A stretch of DNA of 34,141 nucleotides from positions 1-34,141 of the forward strand of contig QHQO01000043.1 of NCBI GenBank assembly GCA_003221195.1, given 5' to 3'. Source of the DNA: Verrucomicrobiota bacterium. GTDB taxonomy: Bacteria > Verrucomicrobiota > Verrucomicrobiia > Chthoniobacterales > UBA10450. Under the pieces are notes generated by a model that was given only the letters and a program-made list of their open reading frames with translations, made no database searches and was not told the origin of the DNA. Of this stretch, positions 4,801 to 34,141 are shown piece after piece (position 1 is the first letter of the stretch; each line of letters opens with the position of its first letter). The position numbers and the translations under genes were made by a program.

Positions 4801-4877
4801 GCGCCCGTAGCTCAACTGGATAGAGCGACGGCCTCCGGAGCCGTAGGTTGCGCGTTCGAGCCGCGCCGGGCGCACCA
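4801..4877 (+). tRNA. tRNA-Arg (anticodon CCG)
   Basis: A full cloverleaf of 77 bases is visible. The acceptor GCGCCCG pairs with CGGGCGC. The D arm is GCTC/GAGC, the anticodon stem ACGGC/GCCGT with loop CTCCGGA, and the T stem GCGCG/CGCGC with loop TTCGAGC. The discriminator A is followed by an encoded CCA. The CCG anticodon reads CGG arginine codons. Confidence 0.97.
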
Positions 4878-31387: not shown

Positions 31388-32083
31388 GTGAATGTTTTAG
31401 CAGCTTTTTATCGCTCGTCGGTCGGGAAGAAAATGATCGTCGCCGTCACCGGCATCATTCTGATCCTTTTCGTGATCGGACATTTGCTCGGGAATTTGCA
31501 AATTTTCATCGGCCCGGATTGGATCAACGGTTACTCGCAACATCTGCGTGATCTCGGGCCACTGCTTTGGTTAGTTCGAATTTTTCTGCTCGCCACTGTC
31601 ATTATTCACATCTACGTGACCATCCAATTGGCAATTGAAAACAGGCGTGCCCGTCCTGAGCCATACATCGACAAGAGTTACGTCAAAGCAACGTTTGCGT
31701 CGCGTCACATGGTGATGAGCGGACTCATCGTGCTGGCATTCATCGTTTATCATCTCGCGCATTTCACGGTGCGCGTTACGGATCCCAGGTTTGGCTTACT
31801 TAAAGCTGATCCGCTCGGGCACTACGACGTTTACTCGATGATGGTGTACGGATTCCAGAATTATTATGTGTCGGGTTTTTACATCCTCGGATTGTTTTTG
31901 CTCGCGCTTCATTTAAGCCATGGATCTTCCAGCTTTTTCCAGTCTCTTGGATTAAATGATAAGAAACTGACGCCACGTCTCGCGTTTGGCGGTCGGATCT
32001 TCGCATGGCTCATATTTATCGGTTACACCTCGATCCCGGTGGCGATTCTCTTCGGTTTGGTTAAACCAGCGCAACAGCTATGA
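31388..32083 (+). CDS. sdhC: succinate dehydrogenase cytochrome b subunit
   Basis: The 231-residue membrane anchor of complex II follows the b558 type of SdhC (about five hydrophobic segments) found in Bacteroidetes and Verrucomicrobia. VGKKMIVAVTGIILILFVIGH opens the first helix; His residues in GHLLGNLQ, ASRHMVMSG, YHLAHFTVR and LHLSHGSSSFFQSLG are candidate haem ligands. It starts with GTG. The 187 bases upstream (31201-31387) show no gene and must contain the promoter. The stop is six bases before the IVS-like element that separates it from sdhA. Confidence 0.93.
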   Translation: MNVLAAFYRSSVGKKMIVAVTGIILILFVIGHLLGNLQIFIGPDWINGYSQHLRDLGPLLWLVRIFLLATVIIHIYVTIQLAIENRRARPEPYIDKSYVKATFASRHMVMSGLIVLAFIVYHLAHFTVRVTDPRFGLLKADPLGHYDVYSMMVYGFQNYYVSGFYILGLFLLALHLSHGSSSFFQSLGLNDKKLTPRLAFGGRIFAWLIFIGYTSIPVAILFGLVKPAQQL

Positions 32084-32089
32084 GGGGCG

Positions 32090-32570
32090 AAAATTCGAAA
32101 TCCGAATATCGAACCCCGAAACAAATTCGAATCTCGAAACCTTGAATGCTGATCCCGAAAATGCAAAACCCTATGACCTAGAGGAGCGGACTGTTGTGTT
32201 TGCTGAACTCAGCCGGGCGTTTGTCAAAAGATTGCCGCGAACGATCAGCAATATCAAGGATGCAAGACAATTTATTCGGGCGTCGGGGTCTGTAGGCGCA
32301 AATTACATTGAAGCAAATGAAGCAATCGGAAAGAAAGATTTTGTGATGAAGATCAAGATTTGTCGCAGAGAAGCCAAGGAAAGTCGGTACTGGCTGCGGT
32401 TGCTTGATGTCGATGGCCAACTCGAGGAAGAACGCCAGCAACTCTCATCTGAGGCAACAGAACTGATGAATATTTTCGGCGCCATTCTCCGCAAATGCGA
32501 GTAACAGGTTGGAGAATTTCAGAATTTTCTAATGTTTGTTTCGGATTTCGACATTCGAATTTCGAATTTT
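32090..32570 (+). mobile_element. IVS-like element with terminal inverted repeats, inserted between sdhC and sdhA
   Basis: The ends are 36-base imperfect inverted repeats: 32090-32125 and the complement of 32535-32570 agree at 32 of 36 positions. Each end is built of CGAANNN units in seven-base phase after AAAATT. Inside is a single gene for a four-helix-bundle protein of the family found in 23S rRNA intervening sequences. The element fills almost the whole gap: six bases after the sdhC stop and ten before the sdhA start. No target duplication is visible. In RNA the ends would fold into a long stem, as in rRNA intervening sequences cut by RNase III. That function here is inference. Confidence 0.75.
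32142..32504 (+). CDS. four-helix bundle protein of the 23S rRNA IVS (S23) family
   Basis: The product (about 120 residues from TTG 32142, the only likely in-frame start) has the family core: KPYDLEERTVVFAELSRAFVKRLPRTI, then RASGSVGANYIEANEAIG, FVMKIKICRREAKESRYWLRLLD and an EATELMNIFGAIL end helix. These are the small basic four-helix proteins encoded by 23S rRNA intervening sequences, related in fold to the Avd accessory proteins of diversity-generating retroelements. The biochemical role is unknown; RNA binding is likely from the family. No Shine-Dalgarno is seen. The frame runs open back into sdhC, but that part is a shadow. Confidence 0.85.
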   Translation: MNADPENAKPYDLEERTVVFAELSRAFVKRLPRTISNIKDARQFIRASGSVGANYIEANEAIGKKDFVMKIKICRREAKESRYWLRLLDVDGQLEEERQQLSSEATELMNIFGAILRKCE

Positions 32571-32580
32571 GTTAACATCT

Positions 32581-34141
32581 ATGATTGGAAGGTTCGACGC
32601 CAAGGTTCCACCCGGTCCGCTCGCCCAGAAATGGCGAAACCATCGCGACCATTCACGATTAGTTAGCCCCAACAATCGGCGAAAGTTCGAGATCATCGTT
32701 GTGGGAAGCGGTCTGGCCGGGGGGTCGGCTGCCGCCACGCTGGGAGAATTGGACTATCGAGTAAAATGTTTTTGCTTTCAAGATTCGGCGCGACGCGCGC
32801 ATTCGATTGCCGCCCAGGGCGGGATCAACGCAGCGAAAAATTATCAAAACGACGGCGACAGCGTTTACCGATTATTTCACGACACGATCAAGGGCGGCGA
32901 TTTTCGGTCTCGTGAAGCCAACGTGTATCGCCTCGCTGAAATCAGCAACAACATCATCGACCAATGCGTTGCACAAGGCGTGCCGTTTGCCCGCGAATAT
33001 GGCGGGCTACTGGCCAATCGTTCCTTCGGCGGCGCCCAGGTGTCGCGTACGTTCTACGCACGCGGACAGACCGGTCAGCAGCTTCTGCTCGGCTGTTATC
33101 AAGCGCTTTGCCGACAAATCGCGGCCGGCACGGTCGAAATGTTTCCGCAAACGGAGATGCTCGATCTAGTAATTGTCGAGGGACATGCGAAAGGAATTGT
33201 TACTCGTAGCTTGTGTTCAGGAAAAATTGAGAGACACGCTGCGGATGCTGTCGTGCTCGCCACCGGCGGATATGGAAACGTGTTTTATCTCTCGACCAAC
33301 GCACGCGGGTGCAATGTCACGGCGACCTATCGCGCTTTCAAAAGAGGCGCGCTCTTTGCGAATCCGGCCTTCACGCAGATTCATCCCACCTGCATCCCGG
33401 TCGGTGGCGAATATCAATCAAAGCTCACGCTCATGTCCGAATCGCTCCGGAATGATGGACGCGTGTGGGTTCCGAAACGTAAGGAAGATCGCAGCAAGGC
33501 GCCCGGTGAAGTTCCCGAGACGGATCGTGATTACTATCTCGAGCGAAAATATCCGAGCTACGGGAATCTTTCGCCGCGCGATATCTCCTCCCGCGCAGCA
33601 AAAGAAGTTTGCGACGAAGGCCGCGGTATCGGTCCGGGCGGGCGCGGCGTTTATCTCGACTTTGCCGACGCCATTAAGCGCCTGGGTGAACATACGATTC
33701 GCGAGCGCTATGGAAATTTGTTCGAGGTTTATGAAAAGATCACCGGCGAAGACGCCTACAAAGTGCCGATGCGGATTTACCCGGCTGTTCACTACACGAT
33801 GGGCGGTCTCTGGGTGGATTATGACCTAATGAGCAATGTGCCCGGATTGTTTGTGATCGGCGAAGCGAATTTTTCCGATCACGGCGCAAACCGGCTTGGC
33901 GCGAGCGCCCTTATGCAGGGCTTGGCTGATGGATATTTTGTTTTGCCCAACACGCTGCCGAATTATCTCGCGGGGCAGATGGGAAAGCGGCCGTCGCCAG
34001 ATTCTCCGGAGTTCCGAGAAAGTGAAAAAGATGTTCGTGCCAGAATCGAGAAACTGCTCAACATCAAGGGCACTCGTTCGGTCGATTCGTTCCATCGGGA
34101 GCTTGGCCTGCTTCTCTGGGACAAATGCGGAATGTCGCGTC
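32581..34141 (+). CDS. sdhA: succinate dehydrogenase flavoprotein subunit, 3' end outside the window
   Basis: 520 codons are visible without a stop. The FAD-binding [18 protein letters not shown] (39-56), the covalent-flavin segment [17 protein letters not shown] (His74), [17 protein letters not shown] and the active-site [26 protein letters not shown] region are all present. The form is the long SdhA of Bacteroidetes/Verrucomicrobia, usually about 640 residues, so roughly 120 are missing at the right edge. Start ATG 32581 is ten bases after the right end of the inserted element, and I see no ribosome-binding site in those bases. sdhB is expected next but lies outside. Confidence 0.96.

Follow-up and report, generated by a model that had tools for sequence, protein, structure and literature searches.

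A heptamer-armed cassette encoding an rRNA-intervening-sequence family protein at the sdhC–sdhA junction of a Verrucomicrobiota bacterium, and its counterparts at other gene junctions

The cassette between sdhC and sdhA

The window (the whole stretch of DNA analysed, 34,141 nt of contig QHQO01000043.1 from a Verrucomicrobiota bacterium) ends within an sdh operon, in which sdhC and sdhA are separated by a short cassette. This cassette carries one gene of the 23S rRNA-intervening-sequence (IVS) protein family, termed IVP here, between two complementary arms. The features are as follows.

31388–32083, + strand: sdhC, cytochrome b558 subunit (TIGR02046, 199.8 bits, cut-off 96), with the stop codon TGA at 32081–32083
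32080–32083, + strand: left ATGA copy, single in relatives with an empty junction
32084–32580, + strand: entire insert, 497 nt, with ATGA taken as the duplicated target; absent from 19 of 26 junctions
32090–32125, + strand: 5′ arm, an array of ~7-nt units; like units continue to about 32139
32142–32504, + strand: IVP gene, from the four-helix-bundle family of 23S rRNA-intervening-sequence proteins, with a putative TTG start
32535–32570, + strand: 3′ arm, complement of the 5′ arm; from TTG 32536 the open sdhA frame crosses it
32581–32584, + strand: right ATGA copy, containing the sdhA start codon
32581–34141, + strand: sdhA, flavoprotein subunit (PRK07573, 975.1 bits, cut-off 866), cut by the window end

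The original prediction, made from the letters alone, had placed an IVS-family gene within 36-base inverted repeats matching at 32 of 36 bases. Both arms were found at exactly the positions given there; 32/36 positions pair (89% complementary). The IVP product matches TIGR02436 with 65.7 bits (cut-off 24) over profile positions 3–107 of 109, and PF05635 with 46.3 bits (cut-off 33.8) over positions 19–103 of 106. Its reading frame is open across 31986–32504, and the TTG at 32142 was chosen as the start by eye. It is the only frame of at least 100 aa in the cassette, which at that length encodes no transposase, recombinase or reverse transcriptase; an 87-aa minus-strand frame overlaps it.

An IVS-type element had been proposed to lie outside rRNA, inside the sdh operon, and the profile matches to sdhC and sdhA on either side agree. 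At Rfam gathering scores nothing was detected in the cassette, the only match in the window being a tRNA at 4801–4874, so that by Rfam and profile matches the host is the sdhC–sdhA junction and not an rRNA gene. No Shine–Dalgarno sequence is visible by eye ahead of sdhA, as had been said. The observation was confirmed and proved larger than first noted; the 7-nt repeats of the arms, the copy-specific repeat unit, the ATGA on both sides and the generality of the design had all been missed.

Occupied and empty junctions in relatives

A search with the SdhA N-terminal segment gave matches in 77 of the 83 genomes of the window's family (own genome included). Thirty sdh loci were examined, and 26 of them, window included, had a readable sdhC–sdhA joint; in L030 the contig begins inside sdhA, and in L032–L034 no sdhC was found upstream. 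The cassette is present at three of the 26 junctions (window, L029 and L036), short arm-like remnants at two (L015 and L022) and other inserts at two (L013 and L020). The remaining 19 are empty, with a clean ATGA overlap of the sdhC stop and the sdhA start. The IVPs of the three occupied sites are 85–88% identical.

The original prediction saw no target duplication. Nevertheless, ATGA occurs at both 32080–32083 and 32581–32584, where relatives without the element have one ATGA overlap. In both the window and L036, an ATGA bounds the cassette at either end and thereby preserves the stop of sdhC as well as the start of sdhA; L029 has ATAA on the left and ATGA on the right. The doubling is partly forced, as stop and start must be kept, and to that extent it counts against reading the cassette as mobile. 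A candidate 11-nt duplication in the window (AACAGCTATGA / AACATCTATGA) is suggestive, yet at that position L029 shows similar sequence as an apparent part of the element, which makes the duplication doubtful.

In a tree built from the sdhC and sdhA flanks and drawn without support values, the carriers are scattered. L029 stands by the empty L028 and L036 by the empty L038, while the window adjoins L013, which holds a different insert, and then the empty L012 and L014. The flanks of the near-sisters L036 and L038 are 97.0% identical across 1493 nt, and those of the window and L013 are 95.3% identical over the same length. The suggestion that the element may be mobile fits this pattern of three occupied and 19 empty junctions with one empty near-sister, in which the cassette behaves as an insertion; from this occupancy we infer that it has moved. 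The case that would have spoken against the suggestion, an identically placed copy of the gene in every relative with no repeats elsewhere, is excluded by the 3/26 occupancy, the 10 IVP genes of the own genome and the recurrence of arms.

Transfer or recombination of operon segments might instead have spread one old insertion, or many losses might have followed it, with no element-specific movement. That the three sdhC–sdhA copies are related yet scattered would suit such a history, as would the resemblance of L015 and L022 to decayed arms. However, the tree was made from the flanks themselves and still separates the carriers, two of them beside empty sisters, so the flanks did not travel along. 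The 19 empty sites are clean overlaps, and IVPs at least 65% identical at different junctions have more similar arms (median 0.47, vs 0.17 for IVPs below 40%, see below). This explanation is judged very unlikely.

The inserts of L013 and L020 are short, lack an IVP, occupy the same ATGA site and share CGGCGCGCCC. Direct repeats lie alongside them (AGCTATGA; ~29 nt, imperfect). The shared sequence and the direct repeats suggest that another small element also uses the sdhC–sdhA joint.

A second junction, cysD–cysN, was identified by matches to PRK05253 for cysD (353.5 bits, cut-off 195) and to apsK for a CysN/adenylyl-sulfate kinase fusion (262.9 bits, cut-off 138.7); the match of CysN to TIGR02034, at 302.7 bits, is below the cut-off of 336.1, and the frame starts late. 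Thirty loci were examined (83 genomes matched), 14 of which have an IVP by profile. Type A, with GATACTG-like arms, is found in G000 (L303), G064 (L307) and G070 (L306, short frame). The remaining 11 are type B of G071 (L304) and copies 52–78% identical to L304. The type A and L304 IVPs share 26% identity in a match over only 68 residues. The CysN segments of G000 and G071 are 97% identical, yet their IVPs are distant and their arms different. Sorted by eye, further loci are empty (L316, L320, L326 (ATGA), L327 (GTGA)), hold arrays without an IVP (L309, L310, L313, L314, L324) or are other or unreadable (L305, L311, L312, L321, L329, L330, L331).

No target-site duplication was apparent in the cysD–cysN loci compared. 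In the occupied loci compared, the CysN frame passes through the 3′ arm, which is now the CysN N-terminus; in L304, L308, L309, L317 and L318 the translation upstream of GHVDH runs through the 3′ arm, or through a lone array, and gives CysN an N-terminal extension. This conversion of an arm into protein is a warning for annotation.

Arms as paired arrays of seven-nucleotide units

Among the 10 IVP genes of the own genome, inverted arms were listed for the window copy and eight of the nine others, L006 and L008 having messy ones; the arms of L001 were seen in the comparison of own with swapped flanks. The repeat unit is different at nearly each copy (L006 and L008 are alike), and the two arms of one cassette match. 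Pairing was then scored in a family set of 120 copies, a non-random set taken from the listed best matches (128 minus four with short flanks and four duplicates), an arm pair being a score of at least 28 between own 5′ and own 3′ flank. The window copy scored 52. The own-flank median was 34, against 18 for swapped flanks (95th percentile 27, 99th percentile 41); 33/120 copies exceeded the swapped 99th percentile, and 33 were the best in their row, with orthologues competing.

The design was also sought in named genomes with a pattern made from an alignment of three rows. At least 593 stretches matched and at least 567 encode a relative; the best 80 were taken, of which 75 had enough flank. By title, these best 80 come from acidobacteria, Bacteroidota, Clostridia, cyanobacteria, Planctomycetota, candidate phyla, proteobacteria, Methanophagales archaea and others. 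Paired arms were found in 91/120 family copies, in 58/75 named-genome copies (from the best 80 of at least 567) and in 24/30 viral-contig copies. Own-arm scores were above the swapped 99th percentile in 46 of the 75 named-genome copies, and in an Rfam scan of 40 named loci from the best 80 none overlapped rRNA. The window cassette is a visible case of a widespread architecture that is undescribed in the literature searched.

The period of the arms is seven. In the 5′ arm, bases seven apart agree at 0.64 (family), 0.70 (named, best 80) and 0.72 (viral), against 0.31, 0.31 and 0.27 after shuffling, and seven is the best lag in 74/91, 51/58 and 23/24 arms, respectively. G exceeds C in the 5′ arm of 82/91 family, 52/58 named-genome (best 80) and 22/24 viral copies. 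The median arm length is 30–32 nt, and the commonest number of units is four, then five. Ninety distinct consensus units were counted in 99 arms. A universal AG in each 7-nt unit, suggested by a pooled motif, was rejected, being enriched in the named set (41/48, z 4.1) and not in the family (19/31, z −1.5). Very long arms were seen in L179 (Planctomycetota), where more than 200 nt of GGACGGT-like units lie on either side of the IVP.

Strand and distance were called with a simple codon-score script or a longest-frame rule in place of a gene finder, and unclear cases were excluded. Among the named genomes (best 80), 56 loci combined paired arms with sufficient upstream sequence. These gave 45 clear calls, 43 of them with a same-strand upstream gene, whose stop is no more than 40 nt from the start of the 5′ arm in 38/43; the downstream gene shares the strand in 35/40. 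Family copies were counted where the arms pair and a neighbour could be called; in these, 79/82 upstream genes and 66/79 downstream genes share the strand of the cassette. The distance from stop to arm has a median of 4 nt (70/79 between −15 and +25), and that from arm to next start a median of 9.5 nt (42/66 within 30).

One such joint is sdhA–sdhB, where a cassette with GTTGAGA-like arms accounts for 13/120 family copies in four genera (L041, L046, L048, L053, L054, L055, L057, L061, L068, L069, L071, L072 and L073). Their IVPs are 65–92% identical and orthologous. The cassette lies ~2 kb behind the sdhA start, the joint being named from L053; the window stops short of it. In L063/L080 and in L095, two neighbouring IVP cassettes are separated by ~1.1 and 1.5 kb, respectively; their IVPs are 93% and 78% identical, and they look like local duplications.

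Whether the two arms of a cassette change together was assessed by exchanging 3′ arms among copies of the same junction (13 junctions, 68 copies, 5000 permutations). The summed self score was 2568, against a permuted mean of 2225 (sd 66), and none of the 5000 permutations reached it; self-pairing beat the median swap in 50/68 copies. In the window's group, whose three arms are alike, self and swapped scores were 44.0 and 46.7. The signal was driven by groups such as group 3, situated behind a second flavoprotein gene of the succinate dehydrogenase/fumarate reductase type (PRK07803, 798 bits against a cut-off of 819, the gene being cut); this match overruled weak matches that had suggested nadB. 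The IVPs of group 3 are 64–74% identical between arm types, and the units are AAAAGTT-, GAATCGT- or GATGAAGC-like. By this permutation test, the arms of a cassette change together across the set as a whole. Between different junctions, the median arm likeness is 0.47 for IVPs at least 65% identical (116 pairs) and 0.17 for those below 40% (3360 pairs), which suggests that gene and arms moved together.

Some arrays have no accompanying IVP gene. A scan of 560,300 bases of the own genome found 20 period-7 arrays above the threshold, compared with one after shuffling in blocks of three; the same scan gave 12 at lag 6, then 8, 3, 2, 1, 9 and 2 at lags 8 to 13, and 17 at lag 14. Four of the 20 lie in IVP cassettes and 16 elsewhere, under a threshold so strict that most arms of the seven cassettes in the scanned part were missed. 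Four IVP-less arrays have an inverted partner scoring at least 28 (L266:15601–15668, L269:6327–6505, L293:10561–10778 and L296:2867–2989); these are the cassette in miniature.

Heptamer repeats are common in bacterial spacers, and slippage has been proposed for them (PMC4679880, PMC4692102). Ordinary polymerase slippage could therefore have gathered repeats at gene ends, their association with IVP being incidental, and the 16/20 arrays outside IVP cassettes would be in line with this. Nevertheless, by an identical test paired flanks occur at 91/120 IVP copies, whereas only 22 of 3000 equally spaced random positions in the own genome reached a score of 28. Moreover, the two sides co-vary, and a matching inverted partner 400 nt away is not made by slippage. 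This explanation can be given next to no credence.

The arms might alternatively matter as DNA, as transposon ends or cruciforms for a transposase acting in trans, RNA pairing being irrelevant. The inverted ends with a short duplicated flank have that character, and the four IVP-less inverted pairs in 560 kb are MITE-like. Ninety distinct units in 99 arms are, however, unlike the ends of a sequence-specific transposase, and the transcript is implicated both by the strand asymmetry of the arms (G over C) and by how the cassette is oriented relative to the upstream gene. On this evidence the DNA-level account is unlikely. REP/REPIN and MITE elements are likewise short, dwell in spacers, have inverted repeats and look non-autonomous. 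Unlike them, the cassette has its own conserved gene, and the sequence of its arms is unconserved between copies.

The protein, the predicted RNA and known systems

A profile built from 22 relatives matched the structures 2gsc (XCC0516; E = 1.6e-31) and 2rld (E = 3.4e-28), each with five chains; the S23p of Xanthomonas campestris is described as a toroidal homopentamer (PMC4990558). The median dN/dS of IVP was 0.09 over the 68 of 209 within-junction pairs that were usable (dS between 0.05 and 3, many near saturation), and no pair exceeded 1; the sdhC–sdhA trio gave 0.08 (dS 0.97). By these comparisons IVP is under purifying selection. Median IVP identity is 0.74 within and 0.27 between junctions. 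Same-junction IVPs are thus mostly orthologous across genera, so movement would be rare and many copies inherited, a point against the mobile reading.

A present need for a resident reverse transcriptase was rejected, as RVT_1 was matched in 16/83 genomes against 80/83 for IVP (own genome included in both); 67/83 have no RVT_1 match, among them G007 with 19 IVPs. The own genome has two reverse transcriptases (L151 and L152), group II intron-like by eye.

Folding of the RNA of 32090–32570 had been suggested as a check. The predicted fold, run on 32072–32592, pairs both arms at −149.9 kcal/mol, and 2/100 shuffles were as good.

It is fairly probable, in our judgement, that the cassette is a mobile, IVS-like element acting as an RNA hairpin at operon junctions. 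That it matters as RNA is consistent with its orientation, its position just after a stop codon, the strand bias seen in the arms and the way the two arms co-vary. The IVS-like and the mobile parts of this interpretation are well supported; an RNA function is a plausible proposal. The interpretation given in the original prediction is, as a whole, partly supported; cutting of the RNA, by which sdhC and sdhA would be separated, and control of the subunit ratio, both raised there, are candidate functions.

Several further results count against the mobile-hairpin interpretation. Paired arms fell below the threshold in 29/120 family copies and in 17/75 named-genome copies (best 80). In 3/13 junction groups, swapped arms pair equally well or better. 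The whole-element fold is only moderately better than its shuffles (z −1.93). Viral copies differ in their seat, the upstream gene being on the same strand in only 5/16 clear calls.

In the operon transcript, the two arms would base-pair as a long hairpin whose loop carries the IVP gene. As modelled, and by analogy with IVS stems in 23S rRNA, the sdhC stop and the sdhA start would meet at the foot of one stem. The repeat arrays may serve as a binding platform for IVP, which in a solved relative is a ring-shaped pentamer; such binding is suggested by the ring shape, by the regular spacing of the units and by the fate that gene and arms have in common. The resulting ribonucleoprotein might tolerate or control processing of the junction, either as cleavage of the RNase III type or as a bridge that keeps translation coupled. 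With processing controlled or tolerated, the cassette could live between core genes.

Whatever its origin, the cassette could instead be a domesticated cis regulator, retained for the control that IVP and its arrays exert on operon expression, for example on the subunit ratio through binding of IVP to its own mRNA, mobility being mere history. Purifying selection on IVP, the orthologous sdhA–sdhB IVPs with like arms in four genera (13/120 copies) and the same-strand seat adjoining a stop are all in its favour. However, 19/26 sdhC–sdhA junctions do without the cassette, and at cysD–cysN distant IVPs swap and some lines have arrays only, which is odd for a gene-specific regulator. Domestication is accordingly regarded as rather unlikely.

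The nearest known system is the 23S rRNA IVS, for example that of Coxiella, which has a 28-bp stem, a length of 428 nt, cutting by RNase III and tandem GACAGAT heptamers before the gene (PMC4990558). Their copy number varies between strains, and S23p is argued not to be made in vivo (PMC4990558). Both elements hold one IVP gene in a stem loop of terminal repeats, with 36-nt arms and 497 nt here, the stem of the window cassette being a predicted one. They differ in that the host is 23S helix 45 there and a protein operon junction here; IVP is under purifying selection here, whereas S23p is argued to be unmade there; and the heptamer arrays stand on both sides here and vary between copies (PMC4990558). 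Insertions in CPR 16S and 23S rRNA encode the same protein family at scattered sites, with rRNA as their host, and the term "inverted repeat" is absent from the main text of that report (PMC11270868). PF05635 resembles Avd of diversity-generating retroelements (PMC10053308); unlike these, the cassette contains no reverse transcriptase.

Known spacer heptamers include GGGAATC in Xanthomonas and GGGGA(C/T)T in Nostoc (PMC4692102), and TAACTGA in Beggiatoaceae (PMC4679880). Like the cassette arms, they have a 7-nt unit in a few copies and are mostly intergenic (PMC4692102, PMC4679880); those of Xanthomonas lie on average 28 nt behind the 5′ gene, often as inverted pairs (PMC4692102). They have been described as arrays and not as arms of a gene cassette. 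In the available text of these two papers "S23" occurs in neither, and "four helix" is absent from that of PMC4679880. Among the listings from searches of an open-licence library that lacks most subscription papers, none was recognised as a description of heptamer-armed IVP cassettes as a class.

A wider reading is possible, although we hold it to be doubtful. IVP cassettes would form a separate mobile class in bacteria and some archaea, with complementary 7-nt arrays of free sequence, specialised for co-transcribed joints. Shed arms would be a main source of the heptamer excess long noticed in bacterial spacers, the arrays would exist because the IVP ring reads one 7-nt step per subunit, and the rRNA IVS would be the best-known member. 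With four units the commonest count and five the next, the arms do not follow a strict five-unit rule.

A protein family known mainly from rRNA gains a wider home in ordinary operon joints, including those of core respiration and sulfate assimilation. The cassettes offer a testable cause of spacer heptamer repeats, for which slippage was the prior explanation (PMC4679880, PMC4692102). They also form a natural series in which arm sequence varies and pairing is kept, so that the RNA-hairpin idea is directly testable.

Viral-classed contigs carry IVP cassettes with heptamer arms (L233–L262), several of them sharing TCGGC-rich arms, and such contigs are possible carriers of cassettes between hosts. 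IVP has also been noted in cas loci, once between cmr3 and cmr2, which fits the operon-junction habit (PMC3936711). It appears as well in a CRISPR-linked list (PMC10910872) and among the unique genes of an Arthrospira (PMC8700078).
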